In this document: positions 18,965-38,752 of the stretch, in pieces | Layout of the letters: the number at the start of each line of letters is the position of its first letter | How positions within the stretch are numbered: the first letter of the stretch is position 1 | DNA from: a virus | Strand: one strand, 5' to 3' | Length of the DNA: 38,988 nt | Virus record (IMG/VR): IMGVR_UViG_3300030419_007281 | Span: 1-38,988 of that record | Made by a program: the position numbers and the translations under genes | The notes under the pieces: generated by a model | Told to the model about the DNA's origin: nothing | Seen by the model: only the letters and a program-made list of their open reading frames with translations | Database searches by the model: none

Positions 18965-19569
18965 TTTTTCATACCGCACAATAATACATACAACTGTGGC
19001 TTGTCATCGGGCCATAAAGTTAAAATATCGTACCCCACCTCAAAGCGCTCTCTAATAAATTTCATATCTAACACTTTTGGCACTTCAAAAAACACAGCCT
19101 CTTCAATATTGTTATAATTAAACTTTCGAATGCTTTCTTGAAAAATTTTAAACTGTGAATTTTTTAAAAATGAGTCTTCCCAAACAGTCGACCACAAAAA
19201 GTTATCATCCTTGTATGCATACTCTTGTTCTCCATCTTTTACCCAACCAACTTTAAAATTATCAAAGCGCCAGTGATCACCCAAGCCCCAGTCTATATAG
19301 AGACGTCCATTTTCATTCAGATTGTCATAACATCTCTGAATGAAAGACTCTGGATCTTTGGCAAAATAAGGGCAACGGAGGGATATGATTGTATCATATT
19401 TTTTGTTTAACTGCCAATCGCTATTTATATCCCAATTATCAAGCTGTAAATCATAACAGTCGCCGGGAAAATACTGATTGTTTTGAAAGCCCAACAGAGC
19501 TACAGAGCCTTGTGGAGAAATATGTTTGTAGTAAAGATCGCTGTAAAGTATTGCGTCGGACTGACCCAT
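18961..19569 (-). CDS. SAM-dependent methyltransferase-like protein
   Basis: Starting at ATG 19569 (MGQSDAILYSDLYYKHISP), the 202-residue protein has a class I methyltransferase-like plan. A divergent motif I is VALLGFQNNQYFPGDCYDLQ, motif IV is YDTIISLRCPYFAKDPE, and motif V/VI is LNENGRLYIDWGLGDHWR. Motif I lacks the usual GxGxG, so the SAM site is altered. The start shares a base with the stop of the deacetylase gene (TAATG). An in-frame TTG at 19590 would overlap more and is not needed. It probably methylates a sugar or a glycan end. The family call rests on overall pattern, not on a perfect motif. Confidence 0.65.
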   Translation of the reverse strand: MGQSDAILYSDLYYKHISPQGSVALLGFQNNQYFPGDCYDLQLDNWDINSDWQLNKKYDTIISLRCPYFAKDPESFIQRCYDNLNENGRLYIDWGLGDHWRFDNFKVGWVKDGEQEYAYKDDNFLWSTVWEDSFLKNSQFKIFQESIRKFNYNNIEEAVFFEVPKVLDMKFIRERFEVGYDILTLWPDDKPQLYVLLCGMKK

Positions 19570-20291
19570 TACAATTCTCTCATAAAACAAAAGTCGATCT
19601 TTTCTTCATTTTTCTTAAGAAAGTTTCTTAAATCTTCGGTTTTATCTTTATCTAAAAAATTTTTATCCCACTCACATGCATGATATACGATCTCGGTTTT
19701 CGAACACAAGGTCAACGGATCAAAAGGCGGATTTACATTATAATATACGACATTCTCAAAATTGTCATCCTCTCCGCCATACGTCTGTTTGTAGTTTGGC
19801 TTTGCTGACAAAGCGAGAATCTCAATACCAAGCTCTTTGGCGGCCCTAATCGAATCGGCAGACATTCGCCACGCTGGTGGTCTGAATATCGGCTGCATGC
19901 TATCTTTGACGCCAGCCTTCTCGGCTGTGTCAAACATAAGCTTAAACCTATCTAATGCTTGCGGGTGACTCAGGTATTGAAATTCGTCATTATTACTTTT
20001 TCTTGGAATGCCGTGAAAATGGCCATGGTAACCAAGCTCAAAGTTTTTCTTTGGCAAATTCTTAATCTCTTCGCAAAACTCTGGATATAGATCAATTTGA
20101 AAAGGATCAGAAGTTCTAGTGTCTGGTCTTCCTTCTTGTGGAGGCATTGTCCTCCAGTAACTCGTTGGAACAAAGAGTGTGAATTTTATATCTTCGAACT
20201 CTTCAATCAATTCATAACACCTCTCAAGAACCTTTGTCGAAGACAAGGGGTGGGGCGATATATCATCTATACTTATATTAACATTAAACAT
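19569..20291 (-). CDS. Polysaccharide deacetylase-like (NodB-homology) protein
   Basis: This 240-residue protein has an aspartate-rich start (NISIDDISPHP), a histidine cluster with His89, His91 and His93 (ELGYHGHFHG), and the later FRPPAWR motif. These are the metal-binding and catalytic elements of the NodB/CE4-type deacetylases, though the spacing is closer to their distant relatives. It would remove acetyl groups from N-acetylated sugars. The gene overlaps the glycosyltransferase upstream by eight bases and joins the methyltransferase at TAATG. No signal peptide is present, so it would act in the cytoplasm on an intermediate. Confidence 0.75.
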   Translation of the reverse strand: MFNVNISIDDISPHPLSSTKVLERCYELIEEFEDIKFTLFVPTSYWRTMPPQEGRPDTRTSDPFQIDLYPEFCEEIKNLPKKNFELGYHGHFHGIPRKSNNDEFQYLSHPQALDRFKLMFDTAEKAGVKDSMQPIFRPPAWRMSADSIRAAKELGIEILALSAKPNYKQTYGGEDDNFENVVYYNVNPPFDPLTLCSKTEIVYHACEWDKNFLDKDKTEDLRNFLKKNEEKIDFCFMREL

Positions 20292-21204
20292 TCTCTATTA
20301 TCTCCACGTATTCTTCTATGGCTTGTTCCATATTCCTATGAAATCCCATAATATTTCGTTTATAGTGCTCAAAGTTCTCTTTTACTTTAGCAACTGCTTC
20401 AATCAAACTGTCATTAGAATCATAGCCGATGCCATAATCCTCGCAATAGTTCGCTATACTTCCGCCATTTTTGTGATATATCACAGGGAGGCCGGATGCC
20501 ATGGCCTCTAATACATGATTTGCGCCGGCTTCTTCCTCGGATGCTGTTAAATAAACGTGATTTTGCGACAACAAATCAGCTAAAATAGAATTATCTCCAG
20601 TTGGCGGGTGGTAATTGGCTTTCATAAATCTTAAATTGTCTGGTAATCTACCAATGTAAGTGAACGCCAAGTCGTTGTCATTTTCTACTATGTGCTTATC
20701 CAAAAACTTATAATACTCGAAACCTTTCTTAGGATTAGTCGACCAATGATGTGTTACGATTTTTAATTTACCAGATACTCCCGTGGAATGCGATCTACTT
20801 TTAAAGAACGTTTTTAGTGGAGCATTGTCTATCACTGTATGCGGTCGACTCAGGGGGCCTAAATACTCTTTAGCCCACTTACTCGGGAAGATTGCATAAT
20901 CTGAAAAGTTGATCGTCTCTCTAACAAGTTCTGTCAATTCTGGTTTTCCGTGTGTTCCCAAATCTCCAACGCGCTGGATTATCTTTGTGTCTTTGAAGAC
21001 GTACTTATAATCAACATAAGTTTGATACCACTCGCCCCTAGAGTTTGGTCGTGGATCAAAGCAGAAAATTATATCTAAATCTCTTGCAAGTTCATAAACA
21101 ACCTCATGACCACGTTGTTCCAGCTTATCAGCTAGCGCCGTTACTGTTTTGTTGCCGCCTCCCCAAGGGCCTGAAACTGGGGATCTATTTATGTAAATTT
21201 TCAT
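20284..21204 (-). CDS. GT-B glycosyltransferase (group 1-like)
   Basis: The 306-residue protein starts MKIYINRSPVSGPWGGGNK, a typical glycine-rich donor or acceptor loop at the first strand. Its C-terminal donor domain contains EEEAGANHVLEAMASGLPV, the E-x7-E-like motif of GT4 enzymes, followed by IYHKNGGSIANYCEDYGIG. It is shorter than many GT4 enzymes but both Rossmann halves are present. It overlaps the oxygenase upstream by 20 bases. Donor and acceptor are unknown. Confidence 0.8.
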   Translation of the reverse strand: MKIYINRSPVSGPWGGGNKTVTALADKLEQRGHEVVYELARDLDIIFCFDPRPNSRGEWYQTYVDYKYVFKDTKIIQRVGDLGTHGKPELTELVRETINFSDYAIFPSKWAKEYLGPLSRPHTVIDNAPLKTFFKSRSHSTGVSGKLKIVTHHWSTNPKKGFEYYKFLDKHIVENDNDLAFTYIGRLPDNLRFMKANYHPPTGDNSILADLLSQNHVYLTASEEEAGANHVLEAMASGLPVIYHKNGGSIANYCEDYGIGYDSNDSLIEAVAKVKENFEHYKRNIMGFHRNMEQAIEEYVEIIENV

Positions 21205-21922
21205 TATATTCTTTTAATTTAACCTTGTACATCTCATGAAGCTTGGAGTGTTCGGGTTCGCCATCCAACTGACTTTCGAGGCAAAAAGAATAAATTACCC
21301 TTAATTGGCCGGATTTTGATTTTGGAGGGATTGCGTGGTGAAAAGCAGATGTGTTTATCAGAGTATACCCTATATTCGAGTTTACAACAGTTACGACGGT
21401 ATCTTCGGTAATCTGTTTATAATCAAACTGCTTATCGGCGGAAACCCTTAGATGAGAGCCCATACAAAAGTGTAAACAGCTTTGCTCCTCTCCGGTTATA
21501 TTCGGATAAAATATTAACTTATAAACGGGGGGTATATTGCCGGATTGTTTCTCTCCTTGGTACCAATGTACATCGCGGTGCCAACTCATATATGAATTTT
21601 GTTCTTCCTCACCGGTATGATAACTTTGTCTAATCTGGGCGACAGATAGATACATTTCTTGCCCTAAAAGACCCCGCAACAAGGTTGGAACGTCGGCTTC
21701 GAATAAAACGTCAAGTACACTTTCATCATACTCGTAAGCGTTTGGCCTCAAGTCTGCCGTTGTCGGGTATTTTTGTTCTAAAGAAAATCCCTCTTTAAGA
21801 TTGTTGCTAGCAATGTCATCCAAGCATTTGATAAATCTTTTGTGCGCAGGACCTTCTTTAAGATTTATAGCAATAATTCCTTGATAATGAAATTGTGCGC
21901 GTATTGGGGAAGTCTCGTTCAT
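21185..21922 (-). CDS. Phytanoyl-CoA dioxygenase (PhyH)-like 2OG oxygenase
   Basis: The 245-residue protein has the PhyH-type metal site: His115 and Asp117 in SWHRDVHWYQGE, and His195/His196 in TSAFHHAIPP with Arg208 shortly after for 2-oxoglutarate. SCLHFCMGSHLRV between them matches the family's substrate loop. These enzymes hydroxylate small organic molecules and, in sugar clusters, sugar or lipid substrates. It overlaps the glycosyltransferase downstream by 20 bases and lies three bases from the one upstream. It is distinct from the oxygenase at 14356. Confidence 0.82.
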   Translation of the reverse strand: MNETSPIRAQFHYQGIIAINLKEGPAHKRFIKCLDDIASNNLKEGFSLEQKYPTTADLRPNAYEYDESVLDVLFEADVPTLLRGLLGQEMYLSVAQIRQSYHTGEEEQNSYMSWHRDVHWYQGEKQSGNIPPVYKLIFYPNITGEEQSCLHFCMGSHLRVSADKQFDYKQITEDTVVTVVNSNIGYTLINTSAFHHAIPPKSKSGQLRVIYSFCLESQLDGEPEHSKLHEMYKVKLKEYNENLHK

Positions 21923-21925
21923 ACT

Positions 21926-22864
21926 CTATCCTTTTATTTTTTCGAAAAATTCCCTGAATGGTTTGAAGCCATCTGGAATTGCATACTTCATTACTCTATT
22001 ATATATGAAATCTAAATTCTTGTTAGCCTTCCAAGCAGATTCAAAATCACTAGGAGTGTTGTACATATTGTTTGCCGCTAAAATTAACGGAGCTAGTCCA
22101 ACTTTTGTTGATATAATCGGAGTCTTTGTTAGACCACACTCTATGATAGATTGTGGACCGCCTTCATGACGAGATGAGACGATATATAAATCGAGACAGT
22201 TGTAAAGTTTATTTAAAATATCAAATTCAATGAAATCAAAACTCTTATAATCAATACCAAGCCTCTTCAAATGCCTAATTACATACTGACGACGGGGACC
22301 TGCGAGGGCGACAAAAAGATCTTTATTTGGGCGCTTTTTAGATATACTTTCCAAAATATCAATTAACTGGTCTGGGCCTTTTTCAAGTTTTGGGCTTATC
22401 AGATCATGGCCTTCTGTATCTCTCTGAAAACTTCCAACGATATAAGCATCTTTTGGAAGTCCAAGCTCTTCTCTTAATTCACCTTTGTTCTTCATCTCAT
22501 ACCACATATGCTGGTTGGCCCAGAAGGGTTGAATGAAAACTGGCTTGTCCGTATATTCAATTATTTGTTCTTTTGTGTTCTCGCAAGGAACATGATACCA
22601 ATCGACAAAGCGGTCTCTGAAAAGAAATTCTCCTCTTTTCTGCTCATTGAACTTCTCTGGTACAATATGGTGTACTGTCAAGACTGTTTTTTTAGACTGT
22701 AGGTATTCTTGTGGAATCCTGTTCCACTGCCATCCGGCCAATACCCAGTTAATATCGGCTGCCGCCAAGTCATCAGTGACAATATCTGAATTGTATTGAT
22801 TCCACTCTTCTAAAAACCTGTCACATATCCAGTTCTCTTGAGGAGGGAGGGAAAAAACTTTCAT
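21926..22864 (-). CDS. GT-B glycosyltransferase (group 1-like)
   Basis: This 312-residue protein has the donor-binding C-terminal motif LYIVSSRHEGGPQSIIECGL followed by TPIISTKVGLAP, the EGGPxxxxE form of GT4 transferases. The N-terminal half carries VHHIVPEKFN and AGWQWNRIPQ. The start ATG at 22864 overlaps the preceding stop as TAATG. It is one of four successive transferases, which suggests stepwise synthesis of one repeating unit or chain. The sugar is not predictable. Confidence 0.8.
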   Translation of the reverse strand: MKVFSLPPQENWICDRFLEEWNQYNSDIVTDDLAAADINWVLAGWQWNRIPQEYLQSKKTVLTVHHIVPEKFNEQKRGEFLFRDRFVDWYHVPCENTKEQIIEYTDKPVFIQPFWANQHMWYEMKNKGELREELGLPKDAYIVGSFQRDTEGHDLISPKLEKGPDQLIDILESISKKRPNKDLFVALAGPRRQYVIRHLKRLGIDYKSFDFIEFDILNKLYNCLDLYIVSSRHEGGPQSIIECGLTKTPIISTKVGLAPLILAANNMYNTPSDFESAWKANKNLDFIYNRVMKYAIPDGFKPFREFFEKIKG

Positions 22865-23838
22865 TATAATTCTCCAAGCATTTTAACAAATCTTTCAGCG
22901 TACTTTTCTTGAGTGTAGTTATCTGCCCATTCTTTTCCGACTGCGACTTGCTCTTGTCTTATGTCCTCGTTGTGTAAGAAATAGATTAATTTATCAATTA
23001 TTTCCTTATCTGTCATTCCTGTACTTATCTCTATGACAAACTTTTTAAAGTTTTCTTGATCTTCTCCGGGGATGTCGCCAGCAATTGAAGTTCCACACAT
23101 TGGCACTTCAATATATTTACCATACCTTGAGTTAGGTGCGCCAGTGCAGGTAATCGCTATTTTAGCCTGATTGATTGTTGTGGCGAAATCCTTGGCATAC
23201 TTGCTGGTATATGCATCCATATGTTCTCCACCCGGGTGGCGTAAGATACCACAATTATACCCCATTCCACTCATTGCATTAAGTATAGGAAACATACGAG
23301 TACGAAGAGGATAGTGATCTCCCAACATAGTCTGCACGCCCACTGCGCCAACCAAAAGACAATCGAACGGTCGGTTAGGCAGGTTTTGATCGTAAAATAT
23401 CGTTTTTTCAGCACTATGAGGAATGTTAACCATTTTAACATCAAAATCCAACGGGTTCTTTGCAAAAAGTTCTTCATATTCCCTCATATCGTTTAAATGG
23501 TGACAAATAATCACATCCGGCTTACTTCCGTTAATCTCTTCAAGCGTCCATTTATGGTCGTACATTTCGTTGTAACGAATGCAGGTTTTTTGCTCAACCT
23601 TGTCAAACTCTTTTAAATCAAATGGTTTATAAGCTACAACCAAATCTGGTTTATCTTGGCCTTCGTAAATTTTATCAATATTCTCTTGCACTGTCAATTT
23701 TTCGTCATAATTGGGCCATCCGGGTCCGGACCAGACAAAATCCGTAACCTTGGAGATCGCTTCCATAGAATGAAACCGTACACGAGACATTTTAGTTATA
23801 TAATATCTCTGTTGGCATAAAAACAGTACCTTATGCAT
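22864..23838 (-). CDS. Glycosyltransferase-like protein (GT-B)
   Basis: The 324-residue protein has a GT-B-like order: an N-terminal Rossmann-type half with VLFLCQQRYYI and KPDLVVAYKPFD, and a C-terminal half with IAITCTGAPNSRYGKYIEVP and MCGTSIAGDIPGED, where other enzymes have E-x7-E. It ends YTQEKYAERFVKML, typical of GT1/GT4 tails. The motif is divergent, so the fold is inferred from the pattern and from neighbours. Both junctions are TAATG overlaps. Confidence 0.7.
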   Translation of the reverse strand: MHKVLFLCQQRYYITKMSRVRFHSMEAISKVTDFVWSGPGWPNYDEKLTVQENIDKIYEGQDKPDLVVAYKPFDLKEFDKVEQKTCIRYNEMYDHKWTLEEINGSKPDVIICHHLNDMREYEELFAKNPLDFDVKMVNIPHSAEKTIFYDQNLPNRPFDCLLVGAVGVQTMLGDHYPLRTRMFPILNAMSGMGYNCGILRHPGGEHMDAYTSKYAKDFATTINQAKIAITCTGAPNSRYGKYIEVPMCGTSIAGDIPGEDQENFKKFVIEISTGMTDKEIIDKLIYFLHNEDIRQEQVAVGKEWADNYTQEKYAERFVKMLGEL

Positions 23839-24560
23839 TAAAGATACCTTCTTTTCAATTTCTCATAGAAAGAATTAGAAGGATAATCTTCGTCTTTATC
23901 CGCTCCGCCACGTCTCCACATTTCATTCCATAGATGCACAGCGTGAGTATCCTCCTTGAAATTCAATTCTATAGAGCCATCCAAGAACGCGGTCCAGAGG
24001 CATCCCGGGATGGGGCAAAACCAAGATGGTTCTTTTATAAAACTCTGCATATTATACTTTTCAACCATCTCTTTCACAAGACGGGGGCCGATTTCGCCCC
24101 ACACTAAATCCTCTGGTTTCTTGTTCATACAAATCTGAAACGCATCTTTAGTCAATATGTTGCCAGCAGGAGCCTTTATAACACAGGATCCAACGTGAGT
24201 GTTGCCTTCCCCTAAAGGATTAACTTCTTCAGAACAAATAACCAAAGGGTCTGGAATATTAAATGGTTTCAAGCAGATAACGTCAGTATCGACCCACCAG
24301 CCGCCCTTTTCACTGAGAAGCTTGTAGCGAAAGTAGTTTGAGAAGCCAGAGAAGCTCTTGTGGTGCTTGTATTCGAAAATCATATCCTCAGGCAGTATTT
24401 CGTTGCCATCGCGGATTACAACGCCATCTGGGACGTTTTCGATATCTTCATATGAGTAAAGCTCAATTGAGTGACCATTATGCACAAAAGAAGACAAACA
24501 CAGTCTCTCCATTGTGCTTAATTTGTTACCCACCCACAGCGTTTGTATTTTGTTGTTCAT
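23838..24560 (-). CDS. DXD-containing glycosyltransferase (GT32/Gly_transf_sug-like)
   Basis: This 240-residue protein begins KIQTLWVGNKLSTMERLCL and has FSNYFRYKLLSEKGGWWVDTDVICLKPF. The WVDTDV segment holds the DxD metal site of the GT32/capsular transferase family. The end (DTHAVHLWNEMWRRGGADK) contains the conserved late His/Trp. Enzymes of this group add mannose, galactose or related sugars in capsule and O-antigen assembly. It overlaps the double-domain transferase upstream by 35 bases. This is one of the clearest transferases of the cluster. Confidence 0.85.
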   Translation of the reverse strand: MNNKIQTLWVGNKLSTMERLCLSSFVHNGHSIELYSYEDIENVPDGVVIRDGNEILPEDMIFEYKHHKSFSGFSNYFRYKLLSEKGGWWVDTDVICLKPFNIPDPLVICSEEVNPLGEGNTHVGSCVIKAPAGNILTKDAFQICMNKKPEDLVWGEIGPRLVKEMVEKYNMQSFIKEPSWFCPIPGCLWTAFLDGSIELNFKEDTHAVHLWNEMWRRGGADKDEDYPSNSFYEKLKRRYL

Positions 24561-26664
24561 TAGCTCCTACCTTATTCCAAAAATTATTGCGTACAGATTT
24601 AAGATACCCTTCTATGTCTTCTAGATTGTCTGTATCAAACCAAGATTCGGTTGTATGCTGAACGTTCTCATTAAGGTTTAATTCACAACCCAGAAGCTTG
24701 GCTTCAATCACCAAACGAGGGCAGGTGTCTGCACCTGCAGGTAAAAAGCAAAGTCCTTTTGCTTTAGCTAAGGTCTCTAACAAATTTATATAACTCATGT
24801 TTGTTAGCTCGACAGTGTTGTGCTCATTCTTAGTGCACCACTTTTTAGCCTCCTCGGAACCTTTCACCCAAAGAGTCGATGTGGGAATTGCCCAAAAGTC
24901 CTCTTTCTTATCCTTATTCTCTTCGCGAAGTTCTTTAATCTTATCAAGCACGTTCTCATCAAAAACAGAAGATAACACTGAGCACTTGTCTTTTTCTAGA
25001 TCAGTTATAGATGATAAATGTATATCCATTTGTTTTTGAGACATAAAGAAAACATTACTTGCTGCTGTTAAGAAAGCAGAAATTCGTTTTCCATGTGGCT
25101 CATCAGCACAGGTGCAATCCTTACCTTCCATAGCTTTATGTAATTCTAAGTTCCTATATTTGCAGAACTTGTAATCAAATTCAACAATATTGATATTTAA
25201 AGAATCTTTGGATTTCAAAAGTTCTTCCATAAAACCTACTTGTAGTCCTGTATAGTTTCCAAAAACCCACTTTGAATCTTTATAGTATTCTAAATGTTTC
25301 TCTGATACATTGTCGGACTTGACTTTAACCTTTGTGCCAGAGCAAGAATTTATTAGAGACTCAAAGCTCAGTTCTGCTCCGCCGGCATATTCATCAGTAA
25401 AGAAATCACTCACAAAAACGTAATCGGCTGGTTCTAATTGCAGCTTGGCACCATAACAAATTTCTGCAAACCTGCCATAGAGCTTTTCCGGAGAGAAGTT
25501 CTTATCGACGTGCTTCTTCAAAGCCTTTGCTAATTTATTATATTTTCCGTTATTTTTGAAAACATCTCTCAAAGCTTTTGTGTAGCTAACCTTTTGAGGG
25601 TACGCCCACATAGAATCTTCAATTAGCACAGGATGCCATACAGCCTCTTTCTGAATTGGCTGAATTGTGTATTCAACACTTGCAAAATGAGGCCGTTTTT
25701 TAACCTTTTTGGTCTTCTTGTCTTTTTGTGGCGCATACAGATAATCTGTGTGGCCTGACCAATTGGGTGCTAAGACAGGCAACTCATTTTGAACCGCTTC
25801 AAACATTGGAAGCCCGAAGCCCTCACCGTGAGCAAGATTAATTAAGCACTTGATTTTTGAATTTTGATAAAGAGAGGTCATCTGTCCATCAGTTAAATCT
25901 CCATGGAGAAGATGGATTTTACACTTTCTCTTACCTTTGGTGTCATCAATCAAAGATTTCAATCTTTTTCTTGTGAACTCACTGTCTTTAATGGAATTGT
26001 TTTTAGTATTCAGTTTTAATACCAGCCCAACATCATCATTCTTAAACTCCTCAATAAACCACCTGACTGTGTTTTCAATGTTTTTTCTTACAGACCATTG
26101 AGATACCATCAAAAAATTAAAATCATTGGGCAGATCCAGATCAAGAGGTTCTGGTTTGACAGTTCTCGTGGCGAAACCGATTGTTTCCAAAGGAGTTGCG
26201 CAGCGATAACCAGATCTTTTTTCGCCGGTAGTGTTATCGATAACATCGTATACGCTGTTTTCAAAAGCTGCCTTTGTGTGGTCTGAGACAGTTATGATTT
26301 TGTCGACTTCGTTACATTTACCAATCCATTCTCCAGAAATCTTGGTCGTCTCAGTTCCTGCTGTGTATCCGATATTAACTTTACCGATATTCTCCCACTC
26401 CTGTGGGATAGTGACTTGAACGGCTACGTCATACTGGGGATTCCTTTGGGAATAAGATATGGTTTTAGCCACCAAGCTATCCATCCACTTTCTTTCCTCA
26501 TCATCATCTGATAACCATCCTGTTTGGCCCCAATTAAGAGGCTCAAAGTAAATATCGAAGAACTCTTCATGAGTTTTCAATGCTCTCAAAGCAAATCTGG
26601 TTTGCTCACCATACCCGGAGCGTGTTAGGCCGGGACCTCTTACTAAAATCTTTTTTCTTTTCAT
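24526..26664 (-). CDS. Two-domain glycosyltransferase (GT4 plus second GT-B-like domain)
   Basis: From ATG 26664 the protein has 712 residues, about twice the usual size. The first half (about 1-410) is a GT4 enzyme: KKILVRGPGLTRSGYGEQTR at the start and INLAHGEGFGLPMFEAVQNE at the donor site. A Lys-rich insertion lies before VSYTKALRDVF. The second half (about 415-712) begins YVFVSDFFTDEYAGGAELSF, like a new GT-B start, and ends with FLPAGADTCPRLVIEAKLLG, like a second donor motif. It therefore looks like two transferases fused. An in-frame TTG at 26685 is possible but the ATG overlaps the previous stop as ATGA. It probably adds two sugars or one sugar processively. Confidence 0.82.
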   Translation of the reverse strand: MKRKKILVRGPGLTRSGYGEQTRFALRALKTHEEFFDIYFEPLNWGQTGWLSDDDEERKWMDSLVAKTISYSQRNPQYDVAVQVTIPQEWENIGKVNIGYTAGTETTKISGEWIGKCNEVDKIITVSDHTKAAFENSVYDVIDNTTGEKRSGYRCATPLETIGFATRTVKPEPLDLDLPNDFNFLMVSQWSVRKNIENTVRWFIEEFKNDDVGLVLKLNTKNNSIKDSEFTRKRLKSLIDDTKGKRKCKIHLLHGDLTDGQMTSLYQNSKIKCLINLAHGEGFGLPMFEAVQNELPVLAPNWSGHTDYLYAPQKDKKTKKVKKRPHFASVEYTIQPIQKEAVWHPVLIEDSMWAYPQKVSYTKALRDVFKNNGKYNKLAKALKKHVDKNFSPEKLYGRFAEICYGAKLQLEPADYVFVSDFFTDEYAGGAELSFESLINSCSGTKVKVKSDNVSEKHLEYYKDSKWVFGNYTGLQVGFMEELLKSKDSLNINIVEFDYKFCKYRNLELHKAMEGKDCTCADEPHGKRISAFLTAASNVFFMSQKQMDIHLSSITDLEKDKCSVLSSVFDENVLDKIKELREENKDKKEDFWAIPTSTLWVKGSEEAKKWCTKNEHNTVELTNMSYINLLETLAKAKGLCFLPAGADTCPRLVIEAKLLGCELNLNENVQHTTESWFDTDNLEDIEGYLKSVRNNFWNKVGANEQQNTNAVGG

Positions 26665-27914
26665 GGTATTTCTATTAATCTCCAAGATTGATAATTTTTT
26701 CTAGTTTCCCAAGAGCCGTGAGTTTCGTGAACTTTAGTTAAAAGCTCATCCCATTTTTTCCCATACTCTTCGAAATTATAGTTCTTTTCAACGTGGCCGC
26801 GGCCAGCAAGGCCGAGACCCTCTCTTTGTTTTGGGGTCATATCGTATATTGTGCGAAGGGCGTTAATAAAGTCTTCTTTCGCCACTCGATCTTCATAAAT
26901 CCAAGGAACGTCCTGAGAGCCGATGATAGCTCTTGATGTGGGGTTGATTCCGACACCGAACCATTCTTCTCCATCAGTAACCTGTTCTTGGAGGCCACCT
27001 GTCATGTTAACGACAATCGGAGTGCCGCAGCATAAAGACTCAAAAGTGGCCAGTCCGAAACCCTCTGCATCAGAGATATTGATTGTGCAGTCAGCCATAT
27101 TATATAAACTGGCTAGTCCTTCTAAAGGATATTTACCAGTTGAAATGGAGATCTGGCCGTCGAGAAGACGCAGGTCATCCAAAATGGCGTACATGTCTTG
27201 ACCGTGAGGGTCATGAGGGTCGGTATGCATAACTAACATAGCCTTGTCGTGGCCGACTTCATCCAAAAACTCTTTAAACCAAAACATAATACTACCAGTC
27301 TGTTTACGACGGGCATTTCTGTTATTCCAGAAAAAGATTACTTTATCGCGATCTTCTTCACGGAGGTTTTCAACTCGAAAAGTTGCTTTTTCAGCAGCAG
27401 CGAGCGGCTTGAAGATATCCGTATCAACAGAGTGTGGAAGATAAACGCATTCCACTTCTGGAGCGACATTGCGTACTACATCATCTGTAACTTTAGAAAT
27501 TGTTGCGATGAGGTCATTTGAAAGATATGAAGGTCTATTAAATACAGGATAAGGTTTGTTATCCCACACATGGTAATATACCATAGGCAAGTTTGCCCTT
27601 ATTTCATTTTCAATGTCCCAAAGCCAGCCATAAAATCTCGGATCTGTCATAAACCAAAGAATATCTGGTTTCTCATTACGTATCACCGAGCGGATGGACT
27701 CCTGTGTTCCATATCCATCAACCGGAATGACAACCCAATCTTCGGCTATTTTCATAGGTTCATAGTTTTCGTGCTTAATAGCTCCGCCGAAACTGATAAT
27801 TTCATATTTACCTGTCTTAAGCAGCGCATCGATCATATATTTTGTTTGAGTTCCCACGCCGGATGGGGAGAGCGGGTGGTCACTTAGAGTCAGAATCTTA
27901 ATTTTTTTGTTCAT
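26661..27914 (-). CDS. GT4 glycosyltransferase
   Basis: From ATG 27914 the protein has 417 residues; a longer reading to 27977 has no support. It opens IKILTLSDHPLSPSGVGTQT, has the donor-site motif INISDAEGFGLATFESLCCG followed by TPIVVNMTGGLQEQV, and ends with a long amphipathic helix. A ribosome site AGGAAG lies just upstream of the ATG. It is related to the first half of the double-domain transferase that follows. It is the first glycan gene to be transcribed, eight bases after the RecB-like nuclease gene. Confidence 0.87.
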   Translation of the reverse strand: MNKKIKILTLSDHPLSPSGVGTQTKYMIDALLKTGKYEIISFGGAIKHENYEPMKIAEDWVVIPVDGYGTQESIRSVIRNEKPDILWFMTDPRFYGWLWDIENEIRANLPMVYYHVWDNKPYPVFNRPSYLSNDLIATISKVTDDVVRNVAPEVECVYLPHSVDTDIFKPLAAAEKATFRVENLREEDRDKVIFFWNNRNARRKQTGSIMFWFKEFLDEVGHDKAMLVMHTDPHDPHGQDMYAILDDLRLLDGQISISTGKYPLEGLASLYNMADCTINISDAEGFGLATFESLCCGTPIVVNMTGGLQEQVTDGEEWFGVGINPTSRAIIGSQDVPWIYEDRVAKEDFINALRTIYDMTPKQREGLGLAGRGHVEKNYNFEEYGKKWDELLTKVHETHGSWETRKNYQSWRLIEIP

Positions 27915-27922
27915 ATCTTCCT

Positions 27923-28705
27923 TTATGTACAGTGTTCTGTTTTGTAAAACTCGCACGGACCATATGGACCTTGGCATGCAAGTTTGTTCTTTGTATACTT
28001 TTTATTAGTTATATTATATAACGCCGCGGCTAATAATTTAATAGCATTTTCAGTTCTTTTTTTGCCACTAGTAATTTTAAATAATTCAACGTGCTCTTTC
28101 TTGGCCGTTCTCTTTAAAAGACCGAAGTGTACATCGATCATATTGGGGTCGATATTATGCTTTTTTGCATAATAATGTTTATAATAGATAAGTTGATATA
28201 TAATCATTGGTTCAGCCCTTTTGCGAGCGTCCCAGCCCCAAGAGCAGGTCTTCCAATCGATAATATGATGTCTTCCGTCGCTAGTTTTTACAACTAAGTC
28301 AATAAAGCCTTTGAAGTTATATTCAGCATCTGTATATTCTTCAATAGGAGTCATAATTGGCTCTTCGGTAGAAACCACTTCATATTCTCCAAAATATTCA
28401 TCAATCGCAGGGATAATATTGGGAAGCAGATTCTCTCCTTGAGTTTTCATATCAACAGCCAGCTTCTTTCTAATTTCCAAGTCTTTTGGAAGATTTCTTA
28501 GCTCCTCACTAAAACGTTGAAGAAAGTACTCCTCTGGATTAATTGATTCTTTTAAGAGAAGCTTCTCACACACATCGTGTACGGCTGTGCCGAAAGCGGT
28601 ATACTCATTCCCTTCAAACGCCGTGAGGCGGTCGATATAAGTAAGCTTGTGATAGAATGCACAAGTGCTCCAGTTTTTAAGTTCGGAAAATGAGATGTGA
28701 GACAT
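27923..28705 (-). CDS. PD-(D/E)XK nuclease, RecB/Cas4-like with Fe-S cysteines
   Basis: The 260-residue protein starts HISFSELKNWSTCAFYHKL, then FGTAVHDVCEKLLL (motif with His), NFKGFIDLVV with the catalytic Asp, and HIIDWKTCSWG giving the DxK pair. Four cysteines, one near residue 12 and three in LACQGPYGPCEFYKTEHC, fit the 4Fe-4S clamp of AddB/Cas4-type exonucleases. It probably acts on DNA ends in replication or recombination, or degrades host DNA. The gene is the junction between the DNA-metabolism block and the glycan cluster. Confidence 0.85.
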   Translation of the reverse strand: MSHISFSELKNWSTCAFYHKLTYIDRLTAFEGNEYTAFGTAVHDVCEKLLLKESINPEEYFLQRFSEELRNLPKDLEIRKKLAVDMKTQGENLLPNIIPAIDEYFGEYEVVSTEEPIMTPIEEYTDAEYNFKGFIDLVVKTSDGRHHIIDWKTCSWGWDARKRAEPMIIYQLIYYKHYYAKKHNIDPNMIDVHFGLLKRTAKKEHVELFKITSGKKRTENAIKLLAAALYNITNKKYTKNKLACQGPYGPCEFYKTEHCT

Positions 28706-29726: not shown

Positions 29727-31037
29727 TTATAATACTTTTGCAGCTAGAGTCGCAACCTTTGAGCGTTCACCTTTTCTAAGTGTTATATGGCCAGCGAGGT
29801 CATAGTCCTTGAACTTTTCAACAACATAAGTCAACCCATTTGAGGTTTCGTCGACGTAAACATTATCAATTTGTTCAATGTCACCGGTGAATACGATCTT
29901 TGTTCCTTCTCCTACTCTTGTAAGTATAGTCTTTATTTCATGTTTTGTTAACTGTTGAGCCTCATCAATAATAAGAAAGGCGTTTGCAATTGAGCGACCT
30001 CGAATATAAGTCAAAGCCTCAACCTCGATTGTACCGTTTTCAATATACAAGTCCAAAGTTCTTTTATCACTCATAAGAAACTCTAAGTTGTCCTGCATTG
30101 GCATCAGCCATGGGGCCATCTTCTCTTCCATTGTTCCCGGGAGATAGCCAATATCCTTACCCATTGGTTGAATAGGTCTTGAAACAATAATCTTTTTATA
30201 CCGGGGCTCATCGCTTTCTAAAGTCTGTTCAAGCCCTGCTGCGATAGACAAAAGGGTTTTTCCTGAACCAGCCTTGCCAACCAAGCTCACAACAGGAACA
30301 TTTGGATCCATAAGTACATCGAGTGCGAAAGCCTGTTCTTTATTTCTAGATCTCACGCCCCAAACTCCATCATAATTAATGATTCTTCTGATGGGCTCAT
30401 TATATCTTAAGAATTTACCAATTGCAGTTTTCTTATTATTCGAATTAGAAACCAGCATAACAAGTTGGTTTGGATATAGTTGAGCCTCGTCCTCTGTGAT
30501 TTCTATTTCGTCCCCAGCATAAAACCTATCGATAACTTGGTCGTCGACGAGATATTCGGTTAAACCGGAAAAGAGAGCGTCACTATCTAATACAATCTGA
30601 TCGACGTTAAAATCTTCTGAGGGTAACTCTAGAGCATCACATTTAATTCTCATGTTGATGTCGCGAGTAACGACAATAATTTGTTTTTTAGGATTGTCTC
30701 TTTTTTCAGCTAAAGCTGCGCTAAGGATTGTATTATCTGAATCGTTTTTATCCAACTCCTGTGGTAATACGGAGTAGTCTTGAGGGCGAGCAAAAACAAT
30801 GCCCTTGCCCTTTCCTATACGTACGCCCTTTTTCAGGCCGCCTTTTTGGCGTAGTTCGTCTAACGTTCGAATAATCAAACGGGCATTTAAGCCAACACTA
30901 TCTTGGCGCTTCTTGTGCTTGTCGATTTCTTCCAATACCTTTAAGGGTATCAAAATGTCATTGTTGCCAAAAGAACTTATCGCAGTGGCATCTGTTAAGT
31001 AAACGTTGGTATCTAGAACATAAGTTTTTTTAGGCAT
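29727..31037 (-). CDS. phoH: PhoH-family ATPase with N-terminal PIN nuclease domain
   Basis: The 436-residue protein joins two domains. Residues 1-140 are a PIN-type RNase: acidic residues lie in YVLDTNVYL (Asp9), VLEEIDKHK, NDSDNTIL and VVTRDINMR (Asp126). Residues 240-436 are the PhoH ATPase with Walker A GKAGSGKT (Lys260) and Walker B AFLIIDEAQQL. This architecture is that of bacterial PhoH2/YlaK proteins, described as ATP-dependent RNA-unwinding nucleases; many phage PhoH proteins lack the PIN part. It has a good ribosome site (AAAGGTGA) and its own leader. Confidence 0.9.
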   Translation of the reverse strand: MPKKTYVLDTNVYLTDATAISSFGNNDILIPLKVLEEIDKHKKRQDSVGLNARLIIRTLDELRQKGGLKKGVRIGKGKGIVFARPQDYSVLPQELDKNDSDNTILSAALAEKRDNPKKQIIVVTRDINMRIKCDALELPSEDFNVDQIVLDSDALFSGLTEYLVDDQVIDRFYAGDEIEITEDEAQLYPNQLVMLVSNSNNKKTAIGKFLRYNEPIRRIINYDGVWGVRSRNKEQAFALDVLMDPNVPVVSLVGKAGSGKTLLSIAAGLEQTLESDEPRYKKIIVSRPIQPMGKDIGYLPGTMEEKMAPWLMPMQDNLEFLMSDKRTLDLYIENGTIEVEALTYIRGRSIANAFLIIDEAQQLTKHEIKTILTRVGEGTKIVFTGDIEQIDNVYVDETSNGLTYVVEKFKDYDLAGHITLRKGERSKVATLAAKVL

Positions 31038-31470: not shown

Positions 31471-32253
31471 ATGTTTAAAGTTTTTTCTAAGTTTTTTATT
31501 GTATTATTTTTGTTTTCTGCATCGTGTGCTACCGTAAGCTGCAACCAAGGGTCTTGTGGGGGTGCTGATGATGTTGGGAGTATTTTACCTAGGACTTCCT
31601 TCGTGAAGATTGAAAAAATTATCGAAGTAAAAATTTGTGATCCAACGGAACCCACAGACTGCTTTACCAAAGCTCTGTTATCTTCTGGTTCTGGTTTCGT
31701 TGTAAGAAACGACAATGACGGTTCTTATATTTTCACGGCTGGTCATGTTTGCGACGATAGTGATGTTATTGCTAGATTTACCGCTGCCGGGGCTCAAGTC
31801 ACGAAACAAGAATTTGTTGTTATAGATATTAATAAAAATCGATTTAAGGCAAAAACGATTGCGTTTACAATGTGCGAAGATATGTGTGTTGCATACGCTG
31901 CAGGATTCTATCGCCCTCCTGTTAAGATTGCACAACTCGCCCCACAACAAGGAGATGGTGCATTAAATTTAGCTGCACCTCTTGGTGTTTTTGACAATGA
32001 GATGATTCCTATTTTACACGGACACTATAGCGGAATAGCTTACGAGGGTAAGGCAATCTATACGATTCCTGCTATTGGAGGAAGTTCTGGTTCCGGAATC
32101 TTCAACAACAGAGGAGAGCTTATAGGTATGATCCATTCTGCTCATATCAGATTCCCTTTTCTCTCGCTTTCACCAACGCATAGAGAGATTGTTGATTATA
32201 TCTTGACCTATGCGAATAGAAAAGCTTTGTTAAAGAAGTTGATGAACGATTAA
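31471..32253 (+). CDS. Secreted trypsin-like serine protease
   Basis: This is the only plus-strand gene. Its 260 residues begin with a hydrophobic signal (FSKFFIVLFLFSASCATVSC) that may be a lipoprotein or Sec signal. The catalytic triad of the chymotrypsin/trypsin fold is readable: His92 in FTAGHVC, Asp137 in CEDMCVAYA, Ser206 in GGSSGSGIFN. The fold opening SGSGFVVRND precedes the His. Cysteines at 56, 64, 94, 135 and 139 suit an oxidising compartment. The ribosome site is very strong. It probably acts in the periplasm or at the host surface, for example in lysis, exclusion of other phages or trimming of surface proteins. Its stop overlaps that of ClpP on the other strand. Confidence 0.85.
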   Translation: MFKVFSKFFIVLFLFSASCATVSCNQGSCGGADDVGSILPRTSFVKIEKIIEVKICDPTEPTDCFTKALLSSGSGFVVRNDNDGSYIFTAGHVCDDSDVIARFTAAGAQVTKQEFVVIDINKNRFKAKTIAFTMCEDMCVAYAAGFYRPPVKIAQLAPQQGDGALNLAAPLGVFDNEMIPILHGHYSGIAYEGKAIYTIPAIGGSSGSGIFNNRGELIGMIHSAHIRFPFLSLSPTHREIVDYILTYANRKALLKKLMND

Positions 32254-32894
32254 ATAATCTCGTCAACTAAGCCGTATTCTAAACAAGTCTCAGCGTCAAA
32301 CCAAAGATCTCTCTTAAGCATTTCACGGAGTTTTCTTTTTGGAATCTTTGTATGCTGCTCATAAAGATCTTTAATGACCCCCATTAACATATCGTTGTTT
32401 TGCATTTGATCTTTCTGCTCTTCATATTTCCCCCACATTCCTGAGGAAAGTTGGTGAATTAGCATAAATCCATTCTTCCGAATAGCACGACGAGTTCCAA
32501 CGATACTAATAAGAGTGGCGGCAGAGGCCGCACAGCCTTCTACAAGCGTACAAACAGGTACGTTGGAGGCTTGGATAGTATCGACAGCCGAAAGGCCCGC
32601 AAACACGCTCCCGCCAAAGCTATTGATATGAAGGTAAATGTTTCCGGGAGATTGCGTCTTCAAAAGATTTGTTTGGTTGACCAAGTTGGTGCTTAAATTA
32701 TTAAGATTCTTATTTAATTCCAAAATTTTAGGTCGTGTAACCTCTGAATAGAAATAAATCGTATTATTAACAACATCAACAATATGATCTTTATCTCTTG
32801 TCACGTTTGTTGGCGACGAAGACTGACTGCTAGGTAGAGGTGGTGGTGCCGCTGTTCTTTTACGACCAGCAGCCCAAAAATAATCTTGATCCAA
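32250..32894 (-). CDS. clpP: ClpP-like serine protease (TTG start)
   Basis: The 214-residue protein has a Pro/Ser-rich N-terminal arm (about 10-30) and then a ClpP core: INSFGGSVFAG, the nucleophile Ser124 in GCAASAAT, His147 in MLIHQLSSG and Asp196 in LKRDLWFDAE. It may serve as a head-maturation protease or act with a host Clp ATPase. The start must be TTG at 32894: no Met precedes the core, and AAGGAG (32901-32906) sits six bases upstream. The stop shares the TTAA at 32250-32253 with the convergent protease gene. Confidence 0.88.
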   Translation of the reverse strand: MDQDYFWAAGRKRTAAPPPLPSSQSSSPTNVTRDKDHIVDVVNNTIYFYSEVTRPKILELNKNLNNLSTNLVNQTNLLKTQSPGNIYLHINSFGGSVFAGLSAVDTIQASNVPVCTLVEGCAASAATLISIVGTRRAIRKNGFMLIHQLSSGMWGKYEEQKDQMQNNDMLMGVIKDLYEQHTKIPKRKLREMLKRDLWFDAETCLEYGLVDEII

Positions 32895-35240: not shown

Positions 35241-36179
35241 TTAAACTACTCTGTTTTTACTTAGAAGATCTCTCATTTTGAAGAGACCGATCTCCTTGTG
35301 TTTACATTCGAGCATAACATCGACGCTATGGTTATATGTGTTAACAGGAATCCAGTACGAATCAGAATGAGCGTTAGCACGAATTTTTGGATCATTTTGT
35401 TCATCAGGTCTAGATTGTGAATAATGCACCACAGGTTTGACGTCTCCCCAAGTTTTGACAGCTAAAGAAAGAGCTTCTTTATTAGTCAAACCGCCTGTAC
35501 AAAAAAGATGGTGGTGTAAATCGTGTACGATGGGGATACCAATGCGTGAATACACATTGTCATAAAGTTCTTTGGTAGAGTACAGGCTAGGCTTGTCATC
35601 GTTCTCGACAGTAAGACGCGACTGTACCGCTGGCGATAGGCGCTCGAAGTTGCGACAAAAGTTGTCGACAGCCATTTGTTTGTCATTGTAGTGTGCGCCG
35701 ACATGAATGTTTAACTTGTTGTATGGTGTGCGTGATAAGCCAAGCATATCGAACACTTGACCATGAGTCTCAAGGTCTTTGATTGTATTTAAGACAACTT
35801 GTTCTCTTGGCGAGGTCAACTTATTGAATGGCCCGGGATGACTAGTGACTCGATGGCCGTGATCTTCAATATAATCACCAGTAGTTTGAAGAACGTCACA
35901 AATCTCATCAAAGTCTGGGAGGTCGCACAGATTATAATCTGAGGCCCAAGGAAACAAGTCTGAGGATAAACGAAAGAATCTGATACCATGAGCTTCGTTC
36001 CACTCTAGAATCTTAATAAGATCTTTACAGTTGGCCAAAGCTAACTCAGAAGCGTATTTGAGACCTTTAGCCTTGAAAGTGCGTTTGATCATTGAACGAT
36101 TAGTTGTAATGCGCTTGGCTTTGGGCGCGTTGGATAATTCCATGTTTATGCAAGCATAGCCTAAGTTGTAATCTTTCAT
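35241..36179 (-). CDS. uvsE: UV-damage endonuclease (UvdE/UvsE family)
   Basis: This 312-residue protein opens LGYACINMEL, then FFRLSSDLFPWASDY, RVTSHPGPFNKL, NIHVGAHYNDK, RLTVENDDKPSLY and PIVHDLHHHLF: the TIM-barrel metal-binding His, Glu and Asp residues of UV-damage endonucleases. It would nick DNA next to pyrimidine dimers and other lesions, protecting phage DNA in sunlit water. Length is normal. It has no Shine-Dalgarno; a sigma70-like promoter places the first transcribed base at the A of its ATG. Confidence 0.92.
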   Translation of the reverse strand: MKDYNLGYACINMELSNAPKAKRITTNRSMIKRTFKAKGLKYASELALANCKDLIKILEWNEAHGIRFFRLSSDLFPWASDYNLCDLPDFDEICDVLQTTGDYIEDHGHRVTSHPGPFNKLTSPREQVVLNTIKDLETHGQVFDMLGLSRTPYNKLNIHVGAHYNDKQMAVDNFCRNFERLSPAVQSRLTVENDDKPSLYSTKELYDNVYSRIGIPIVHDLHHHLFCTGGLTNKEALSLAVKTWGDVKPVVHYSQSRPDEQNDPKIRANAHSDSYWIPVNTYNHSVDVMLECKHKEIGLFKMRDLLSKNRVV

Positions 36180-36297: not shown

Positions 36298-36323
36298 TCA
36301 TTTCTACCTCTAACATAACTAGG

Positions 36324-36396
<73 letters not shown>

Positions 36397-36398
36397 GA

Positions 36399-36475
36399 TG
36401 GCACCCTCTATTGGATTCGAACCAATGACCTACAGATTAGAAGTCTGTTGCTCTATCCTACTGAGCTAAGAGGGC
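36399..36475 (-). tRNA. tRNA-Arg (anticodon UCU), CCA encoded
   Basis: A 77-base cloverleaf with acceptor GCCCTCT/AGAGGGT (one G-U pair), D-arm GCTC..GAGC, anticodon stem ACAGA/TCTGT with loop CTTCTAA (UCU, reads AGA), T-arm ATTGG TTCGAAT CCAAT, and an encoded CCA. AGA is used very often by the phage genes here, so it plausibly supports late translation. The promoter upstream predicts transcription starting at its first base. Confidence 0.93.
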
Positions 36476-36846: not shown

Positions 36847-37024
36847 TTTTAAGCTTCCTTGATTTAACTACAAACTTTTCATTTGCGCGCTTTCTTACTT
36901 TAGCTTGATGAGTTCCTTCTGCAAGAATTTTCGTTCGTTCACTGTCAGCTTCTTCAAAAGAATCAAACGTGCGACTAATAGTCCAAGGACGTCCCTGCTT
37001 CTTGACTTCTACTTCTACTTCCAT
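36824..37024 (-). CDS. Small basic protein downstream of the FtsZ-like gene
   Basis: The 66-residue protein starts MEVEVEVKKQGRPWTISRTF and continues DSFEEADSERTKILAEG. It ends strongly basic (KVRKRANEKFVVKSRKLKSG). A beta-hairpin followed by a helix and a Lys/Arg tail suggests nucleic-acid binding. It overlaps the FtsZ-like gene by 10 bases, so the two are translated together; a partner or regulator of the filament is possible but is only inferred from position. Confidence 0.65.
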   Translation of the reverse strand: MEVEVEVKKQGRPWTISRTFDSFEEADSERTKILAEGTHQAKVRKRANEKFVVKSRKLKSGKQESN

Positions 37025-38055
37025 TCTAACCCGCCCATAGTCATAATAGCAATCAGGCCGGGTAGACCTTCTTTAATGTATACGCCTGAGAAAAGAGTTT
37101 TAGTCCTGCCTCCGACATACGCTGTCGCTGCATCAATATGCTTGCTGATCTCAGGATCGTTTGCCATTTCTGGAGTGATCACGAACAAAATTGCTCCTGT
37201 ATCCGGCTTTCCCCGTGGAGTTGGACAAGGAGACCGCTTAATACAATTCTGAAAGATTGTTGCCCCCAGATTTGATTCTGAGGGATCCGTTACCAACGTT
37301 GTACCAAGCACCATTCTCTTTTTTGTTAAAAGACACTTTTCAAGATCTTTAGAATCAAATGTTTGAATTGGAGATGTTTCAGAAGACAACTTAAGTACTT
37401 GAGCCATCATTTTTGCGAAAGCTGTATTTGCTGCTGGATATAAATTAAGCATTCCAACTTTTCCTCTGAGCATTTGAACCTGCTTTTCATTACTGAGAGC
37501 GATATGAGGAAGAGCGGAGACGTCCTTAAGTAAGGAATTCGCATTGCTGCTAATCGTGTCATTAAGTGATTCTTGGGCTGTGGGAACCGTCACGACATAG
37601 ACAACAGTACCAGTGGCCTGATTTGATTTAAGGTATCTTGCAAAAACGTCTTTAAGCGCTCCAGATGCAGAGCCGGTACCTCCACCGCCTCCAGCGAGCA
37701 CAAAAAGCCAGTCGACTTTTCCGAGCTTTGTACGCAGGGCATCTTCAACTACAGTGCCGTTATCTTTAAGCACCTTTTTACCAAAGTTAACATCTTTTCC
37801 AACCCCATCTGAATCTGGGATCAATACAAGATGTTGAGGATCGACGCCCTCAGGCTGATCCTTCTCTGTTGTGTTAACCAAGAGGGTTTTAGTAAACCCA
37901 ATGTCGATAAAAGCCTTTGCTAGCTTTCCACCTCCGCCTCCAACGCCGACGAATCCAACGTTTAAAGCCGAGATAGCTGTATTTTCAGGTAGTAGATCTC
38001 CTCCGGTCTCTTCGACTTCTGCACCGTAATGATCTACAAAATCAAAATCACTCAT
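37015..38055 (-). CDS. FtsZ/tubulin-like GTPase
   Basis: The 346-residue protein has the FtsZ/tubulin layout. The nucleotide-binding first loop is FVGVGGGGGKLAKAF (about 35-49). The tubulin signature is at 121-132 (AGGGGGTGSASG; FtsZ has GGGTGTG). The catalytic T7-type loop is FDSKDL at 233-238, which keeps two acidic residues but lacks the usual Asn. It has no long C-terminal tail, so the FtsA/ZipA-binding peptide of host FtsZ is missing. Polymers of such proteins position phage or plasmid DNA (PhuZ, TubZ). The ATG has GGAGA at seven bases and follows a long leader. The family call is firm; relation to PhuZ, TubZ or FtsZ cannot be settled by eye. Confidence 0.85.
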   Translation of the reverse strand: MSDFDFVDHYGAEVEETGGDLLPENTAISALNVGFVGVGGGGGKLAKAFIDIGFTKTLLVNTTEKDQPEGVDPQHLVLIPDSDGVGKDVNFGKKVLKDNGTVVEDALRTKLGKVDWLFVLAGGGGGTGSASGALKDVFARYLKSNQATGTVVYVVTVPTAQESLNDTISSNANSLLKDVSALPHIALSNEKQVQMLRGKVGMLNLYPAANTAFAKMMAQVLKLSSETSPIQTFDSKDLEKCLLTKKRMVLGTTLVTDPSESNLGATIFQNCIKRSPCPTPRGKPDTGAILFVITPEMANDPEISKHIDAATAYVGGRTKTLFSGVYIKEGLPGLIAIMTMGGLEWK

Positions 38056-38088
38056 GTTTTTTTCTCCATTAAAAACGCCAACAGCCCA

Positions 38089-38121
38089 AACCCTCTGTCA
38101 GCAAAGTCCACCCGTAGGGTT
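38089..38121 (-). promoter_or_regulatory. Leader hairpin near the FtsZ-like start
   Basis: AACCCT and AGGGTT form a perfect six-base stem with a 21-base loop, ending about 34 bases before ATG 38055. There is no U-tract, so it is not a simple terminator; it may affect translation or RNA stability. Confidence 0.35.
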
Positions 38122-38242
38122 CAATTCACTAATAATAACCTAATATGAAATAAAGTTTAAGTATATATCTATATATCTATGAGTTGGCTTTTATCTCGCT
38201 CCAAAGCCATACTAGCCTCTCTTCACATTTCGCAATACAATA

Positions 38243-38314
38243 GCTGGGTTTCGTTAGAGACAATGAAAACCGACATTCGAAGGATACTCATAGAATAATG
38301 CCCAGCGACTAACG
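38243..38314 (-). ncRNA. Candidate pseudoknot element in the leader
   Basis: On the minus strand CGTTAG (38309-38314) and GCTGGG (38301-38306) are followed downstream by CTAACG (38252-38257) and CCCAGC (38243-38248). The order a-b-a'-b' is that of a pseudoknot, or of two mutually exclusive stems. GCCC at 38328-38331 can also pair with GGGC at 38300-38303, giving a third, competing helix at the predicted 5' end. Only 6-base helices are involved, so chance is not excluded. Confidence 0.3.
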
Positions 38315-38404
38315 CCTCCTTTCTTCAGGGCACAAAAATTATAGCTAAATCATAATCATCCTCAGTTTGTTTGTATAGTAATATAGCTTAAAAAAAAGTT
38401 AAAG

Positions 38405-38752
38405 TCAATCTTTTTCTTCAAAGTAAGATTCAATCTGGTATTTCTTAACCAATTGATTAAACCTATTTTTATCTAATCCAAGGAACCTAGCAGCTTCCAT
38501 TTTGGTTGATGTAGCTGAGTATGCATATTTTAAAACGGCATCGTTAGTAATGTTCTTAAGAGAATACCAAATTGGTAGACCATAGAGCATACCTCCAGCC
38601 GCCTTAGCTGCTAATTCTAGCTTGAGTCCAATAACTTCTTCAAGACTTAAGTTATTTAACATAACTTCAAATTCGTCGGTAGTTTTATTTTGTTTCTGAA
38701 GTTTTTTACTTAAAGAAGACTGACTGTTTTTTCCTTGAGTTTTTTTATTCAA
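38405..38752 (-). CDS. Fis-type helix-turn-helix DNA-binding protein
   Basis: The product has up to 115 residues. The first 30 are Lys/Gln/Ser-rich and probably disordered. The core LSLEEVIGLKLELAAKAAGG is followed by YGLPIWYSLKNITNDAVLKY. The C-terminus TKMEAARFLGLDKNRFNQLV is a Fis-like helix-turn-helix. The start is TTG at 38752 (an in-frame TAG lies 24 bases upstream); ATG 38662 would give 85 residues and keep the whole core. Neither has a clear ribosome site. From memory, similar small HTH proteins are common in T4-like marine phages. It would bind DNA, perhaps as a regulator of the genes that follow. Confidence 0.72.
   Translation of the reverse strand: MNKKTQGKNSQSSLSKKLQKQNKTTDEFEVMLNNLSLEEVIGLKLELAAKAAGGMLYGLPIWYSLKNITNDAVLKYAYSATSTKMEAARFLGLDKNRFNQLVKKYQIESYFEEKD

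Follow-up and report, generated by a model that had tools for sequence, protein, structure and literature searches.

Why a phage that looks T4-like should carry a tubulin, and which kind of tubulin this is, are the questions raised by a gene in a 38,988-bp IMG/VR virus record, the whole of which was analyzed here and is referred to as the window. Phage tubulins have been described in two settings, as PhuZ in nucleus-forming phages and as TubZ in a plasmid-like prophage (PMC7950403), and in a survey of marine jumbo phages tubulin was reported from the phiKZ-like cluster and no other (PMC9123017). A first-pass annotation of the window had called an open reading frame (ORF) at 37015-38055 an FtsZ/tubulin-like GTPase gene. 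We recovered an ORF with exactly these coordinates, which is the single tubulin-type gene of the record and has an ATG start codon and a GGAG 5' of the ATG. The gene and its upstream signals are:

37015-38055, minus strand: predicted tubulin/FtsZ-superfamily GTPase, type I, placed in the TubZ clade, 346 aa (ORF, Pfam, PDB match, AlphaFold, tree)
38064-38067, minus strand: Shine-Dalgarno-like GGAG, 8 bases before the tubulin ATG, read from the sequence
38056-38404, minus strand: non-coding gap of 349 bp 5' of the tubulin gene, with a promoter-like TTGACT-17-TATATT at its far end

The product matches the Pfam Tubulin family (PF00091, Tubulin/FtsZ GTPase) with an E-value of 5e-7 and 30.5 bits, slightly short of the 33-bit cut-off, and its best sequence match in the PDB is CetZ 3zid (E 2e-9), followed by many FtsZ proteins. 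Shine-Dalgarno-like sites precede ~60% of the genes in large relatives of the window vs ~10% of control positions. Between the window gene and its nearest relatives dN is ~0.035 while dS is ~1.9 (dN/dS ~0.019), which shows strong purifying selection on the protein. The ORF is confirmed as real and its match as beyond chance. In the upstream gap we detected neither iterons nor an unusual RNA fold, and both iterons and structured RNA were ruled out as its content. The T4-type late promoter TATAAATA was also rejected; its frequency in the window is not above chance, and none lies at the tubulin gene.

We then asked whether the protein has the fold and the active site of a tubulin. An AlphaFold2 model calculated with 28 family members as input is a complete two-domain tubulin fold with the central helix H7, predicted with confidence (pLDDT 90.9, pTM 0.88) except for residues 1-18, which have a pLDDT <50 and are taken as disordered. 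In Foldseek and VIA-align 2 the top structural matches of this model are TubZ, CetZ, and FtsZ (VIA Z 27-33), and not a non-polymerizing Rossmann protein. TubZ 4ei7 (Z 32.6, rmsd 2.3, 311 residues aligned) and CetZ 4b45 (Z 32.6, rmsd 2.5, 293 residues aligned) lead, and FtsZ structures lie near 29; because 4ei7 and 4b45 tie, structure alone cannot choose between TubZ and CetZ. In alignments with FtsZ, CetZ, and PhuZ, no nucleotide loop of the GTP pocket (T1-T6) is missing, and both acidic residues of the T7 loop are retained. Three of these loops correspond to the motifs GVGGGGG, GGGGGTGSASG, and FDSKDL of the first-pass annotation, which we find as part of T1 (residues 37-43), in T4, and as T7, respectively:

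37921-37953, minus strand: T1 nucleotide loop FVGVGGGGGKL, residues 35-45, aligned with FtsZ, CetZ, and PhuZ
37669-37692, minus strand: T4 tubulin signature GGGGGTGS, residues 122-129, with GGGTGS in 86/86 members
37342-37359, minus strand: T7 loop FDSKDL, residues 233-238, with catalytic Asp 234 and 237, aligned with NVDFADV of FtsZ

All 86 full-length members of the type I family that we examined have both GGGTGS and D-[ST]-[KR]-D, and the residues that are invariant among them are enriched in T2, T4, T6, and T7. The T7 loop lacks the usual Asn, as had been noted at the outset; type I members have Ser or Thr at this position. Because PhuZ has Ser (or a Gly-Arg-type sequence) and CetZ has Val there, the missing Asn is no argument against activity. 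To our knowledge, the D-x-x-D of T7 has a function only in contact with the nucleotide of the next subunit, as established for FtsZ and tubulin; its invariance in 86/86 members, therefore, argues for polymers. GTP binding and polymerization, which the first-pass annotation had deemed plausible, are plausible also in view of the predicted fold and the intact loops, and on the same grounds we infer that the window protein is probably an active GTPase that polymerizes.

The label FtsZ did not survive comparison with the superfamily, while membership of the superfamily itself is upheld by the fold and the loops. Against the FtsZ equivalog model TIGR00065 the window protein scores 32.2 bits, where the cut-off is 295.2. 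To place the protein, we collected relatives from viral contigs, with 36 loci from a first scan and 261 contig stretches from a profile scan, of which 80 were kept. These type I proteins are 60-95% identical to the window protein. Contigs with a related terminase yielded another, divergent type (type II; L233:10043-11185, 380 aa), which is homologous to type I from end to end (hhalign E 4e-32 over 336 columns), matches TubZ 4ei7 with an E-value of 2e-14, and scores above the cut-off for the TubZ-like C-terminal domain PF22453, to which the window protein has no match. A profile scan with type II returned 136 relatives, including a third type (type III) at 36-39% identity, and tubulins of Bacillota plasmids also match type II. 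Type III distantly matches gp138 of Bacillus phage G (~24% identity). Viral tubulins of the TubZ clade thus fall into three or more divergent types, which together occur on hundreds of viral contigs.

In a first tree, the type I family fell outside FtsZ and PhuZ, and a smaller tree grouped types I and II with TubZ at 95/92. In the full tree, types I, II, and III, plasmid TubZ, and phage G gp138 form one clade (98/95), from which FtsZ, haloarchaeal CetZ, and PhuZ are each separated at 100/100, with the limits that the tree has several long branches, that its TubZ references are few (PDB 4ei7 and Bacillota plasmids), and that the plasmid proteins are named TubZ by homology and by a grouping with 4ei7 that is weak at 91/55. 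CetZ 3zid is not firmly placed. Judged from sequence and tree position, the window protein groups with TubZ and not with FtsZ, a label that is wrong for it; the bit scores and the position outside FtsZ rule out an FtsZ orthologue. The protein nevertheless differs from each of its closest known counterparts. With TubZ of Bacillota plasmids (4ei7, 2xka) it has the GTP loops and T7 aspartates in common, within the best-supported clade, but only ~16% identity, and TubZ is carried by plasmids or plasmid prophages whereas the carrier here is a T4-type phage. Archaeal CetZ (3zid, 4b45, 4b46) is as close in structure and provides the best single-sequence PDB match, but haloarchaeal CetZ forms its own clade. 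FtsZ has the same GTPase core and fold but has a C-terminal tail and the T7 Asn. PhuZ is likewise a phage tubulin, but of a separate clade. Finally, gp138 is a phage-encoded member of the same clade, but gives no tblastn match to type I and belongs to a very different phage of 497 kb. Of note, this protein (78686-79816 of the phage G genome), annotated as putative FtsZ-like, itself falls with TubZ and the uncultivated phages and not with FtsZ or PhuZ.

Because these relatives come from viral contigs, we searched databases of isolates. Types I and II have no convincing match in 50,697 phage records, and type I has none in 72,556 plasmids; among isolated phages, the distant gp138 alone was found. 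The nearest isolates by TerL and MCP, Flavobacterium phage immuto and Microcystis phage Mel-JY01, have terminase and capsid proteins 43-48% identical to those of the group and no detectable tubulin. The terminase and capsid proteins of a 484-kb uncultured phage, LR756508.1, are 44-53% identical to those of the group, from which we conclude that relatives of the group reach very large genomes; no tubulin of the type I family was found in it. Two further phage proteins in the structure library, at 17-19% identity, are annotated as FtsZ or cell division protein, and phage tubulins outside PhuZ are, therefore, already in databases. In the openly licensed literature we found no published description of a T4-type group with TubZ-clade tubulins; earlier work may have been missed.

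What kind of phage carries the gene? The type I relatives examined are T4-type, with homologues of the gp17 terminase, gp20 portal, gp21 protease, and gp23 capsid protein, in agreement with the initial reading of the window as T4-like; neck and sheath genes are also present, and contigs reach 205 kb. The gp55-like late sigma factor that had been reported is found at 10435-11127 (phrog_234, E 1.7e-5). Type III carriers are known from their tubulin neighborhood. As the window itself is only 39 kb, we searched eight large relatives by sequence for chimallin and the phage RNA polymerase beta subunit and found neither, while a phiKZ control was positive; together with the separate clade, this agrees with the earlier view that the carrier is unlike known PhuZ phages. 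Some large relatives by TerL (G018, G020, and G022) have no detectable tubulin, and the tubulin may, therefore, be non-essential to such phages, although these records may be fragments. To judge from IMG sample numbers, the contigs may be marine. All four tubulin matches in GTDB genomes lie on contigs of Flavobacteriales metagenome-assembled genomes (L125-L128). A Flavobacteriales host conflicts with the use of Shine-Dalgarno sites, which precede 1/26 genes in Flavobacterium phage immuto vs ~60% in the large relatives of the window; the binning could be in error, or the host could be an unusual one.

Next, we considered the position of the gene. In the window, the order is HTH gene, tubulin, tRNAs with UvdE and others, ClpP, trypsin-like protease, and PhoH, and in other phages the same HTH/ClpP/PhoH slot holds type II tubulins. 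The flanks of the slot are:

38405-38752, minus strand: small protein of 115 aa with an HTH-like C-terminus (read by eye, no family match), cluster c40, upstream flank
32250-32894, minus strand: Clp-like protease (PF00574, E 4e-31), downstream flank by synteny
29727-31037, minus strand: PhoH-like protein (phrog_2765, E 1e-115), further downstream flank by synteny

Within the slot, a UvdE-type UV endonuclease gene (35241-36179, minus strand; PF03851, E 4e-60) lies beside two tRNA genes (Thr-TGT and Arg-TCT, 36322-36475), and the trypsin-like protease gene (31471-32253, plus strand) is on the strand opposite to its ClpP-like and PhoH neighbors, an order kept in distant relatives. Elsewhere in the window, a block of sugar genes (11923-27977, minus strand) encodes a UDP-glucose dehydrogenase-like protein, two nucleotide-sugar epimerases, and at least four glycosyltransferase-like proteins, and possibly serves glycosylation of the virion or DNA. 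In 28 of the 51 loci where the tubulin gene is flanked on each side by four or more genes, a head or neck gene lies no more than three genes away. Three places are seen, one between the genes for the major capsid protein and a neck protein, one directly before the prohead protease gene (gap of 1-4 bp in 10/11 loci), and, in a single locus (L085), one between prohead protease and scaffold. The remaining 23/51 loci, some of them in close relatives of the window, have no head gene nearby, nor does the slot of the window itself, and other tubulin loci adjoin an SbcD-SbcC gene near the terminase. In one lineage, the adjoining gene (L019:3589-6696, with homologues in L009 and L022) encodes a protein of 1035 aa whose first third matches SbcD and whose remainder matches SbcC, so that both nuclease subunits appear to be united in one chain. 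Hence, the tubulin gene moves between genomic places, and its frequent placement in the head block suggests a late, assembly-related role.

The two ends of the protein set it apart from TubZ and FtsZ. The window protein stops at the last strand of the core in both the AlphaFold model and the alignment, and has neither the long C-terminal helix and flexible tail of TubZ nor the FtsZ-type C-terminal tail with its partner-binding peptide, bearing out the earlier remark that the host-division tail is missing. It has an acidic N-terminal motif instead:

38023-38049, minus strand: DFDFVDHYG, residues 3-11, in the predicted disordered tail (1-18), supported by family conservation and pLDDT

The core [DE]F[DG]F is found in the otherwise variable acidic N-terminal tail of 85/86 type I members and is usually followed by xDHYG; in relatives, extensions of variable length precede the motif, which is doubled in some members. 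The N-terminus is IPDLDIEDFD in type II and MPxIPIP-like in type III, and some Bacillota plasmid relatives have acidic-aromatic C-terminal ends (DDIDF, EDFDEDLIF). That a partner-binding motif was swapped from the C- to the N-terminus is a lead, not a result. Cleavage of the N-terminus by the prohead protease at LLPE/N was considered and rejected: the site follows a conserved pattern, L-x-[ED]-N, but with Asp in place of Glu in several members, and residues 19-31 are confidently modeled as packing beside the core, so that structure explains this conservation better. The TubZ tail is reported as necessary for filament dynamics (PMC5322520).

Based on these observations, our working hypothesis, which we consider probable, is that the product of the gene is a TubZ-clade phage tubulin that forms a GTP-driven dynamic filament and, late in infection, positions the DNA or capsids of the phage. 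Specifically, the tubulin would bind GTP and stack head to tail into filaments in which the T7 aspartates of one subunit complete the GTPase site of the next; the filament would turn over dynamically and move or arrange phage DNA or capsids, probably in the late phase of head building; and the acidic N-terminal motif, rather than a C-terminal tail, would tie the filament to its cargo or anchor. PhuZ places both DNA and capsids in phiKZ-like phages, and it has been argued that large virions may need such transport (PMC7950403). Centring of replication, as envisaged in the first-pass annotation, is a possible function. The 23/51 loci away from head genes, the large relatives with no detectable tubulin, and the absence of the TubZ tail speak against this hypothesis. 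More tentatively, the carriers may represent an undescribed, widespread T4-type group that, without a phage nucleus, produces a TubZ-type tubulin along with its head proteins and employs it as a cytoskeleton in virion assembly or packaging, the N-terminal motif replacing coupling through TubR and the C-terminal tail.

Membership of the TubZ clade would also fit partition of the TubZRC type, which would maintain the phage through host cell division in a plasmid-like or pseudolysogenic state, as TubZ of phage c-st does (PMC7950403). We regard this as unlikely: centromere repeats were not found in 38056-38404; sequence comparison identified no TubR neighbor and ruled out the upstream HTH gene for that part, as it is no constant partner and lies far from the tubulin gene elsewhere, e.g. 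on the contigs of L067 and L016; neighbors vary between lineages, unlike a fixed tubR-tubZ operon; and the C-terminal tail is missing. If, by contrast, the protein were a virion part or an assembly GTPase with a tubulin fold but no cytomotive filaments, it would make sense that many relatives have the gene between those for capsid and neck proteins or within a few bases of that for the prohead protease, but the invariant T7 aspartates would be left unexplained, as would the lineages, including the window, with the gene outside the head block; such a head-morphogenesis protein seems improbable to us.

Inhibitors of host division are common among phages, and a member of the FtsZ superfamily could act as a decoy that poisons FtsZ. 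This block of host division, raised in the first-pass annotation, found no specific support; the protein is distant from FtsZ in sequence and tree, and its fully kept GTPase and T7 sites are unexpected for a mere poison, making a decoy very unlikely. A PhuZ-like spindle serving a phage nucleus is brought to mind by a phage-encoded tubulin in genomes up to ~205 kb, but the position outside the PhuZ clade, the T4-type head genes, and the lack of chimallin and RNA polymerase beta in the eight large relatives largely refute a nucleus-forming phage and leave this role with hardly any probability. We, therefore, favor the dynamic filament that places DNA or capsids. If this is correct, cytoskeletal organization of infection would depend neither on a phage nucleus nor on lysogeny. 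This reading suggests that many ordinary-looking phages may organize infected cells with a cytoskeleton of their own, and raises the testable question of whether large virion size or head assembly alone selects for a filament system.
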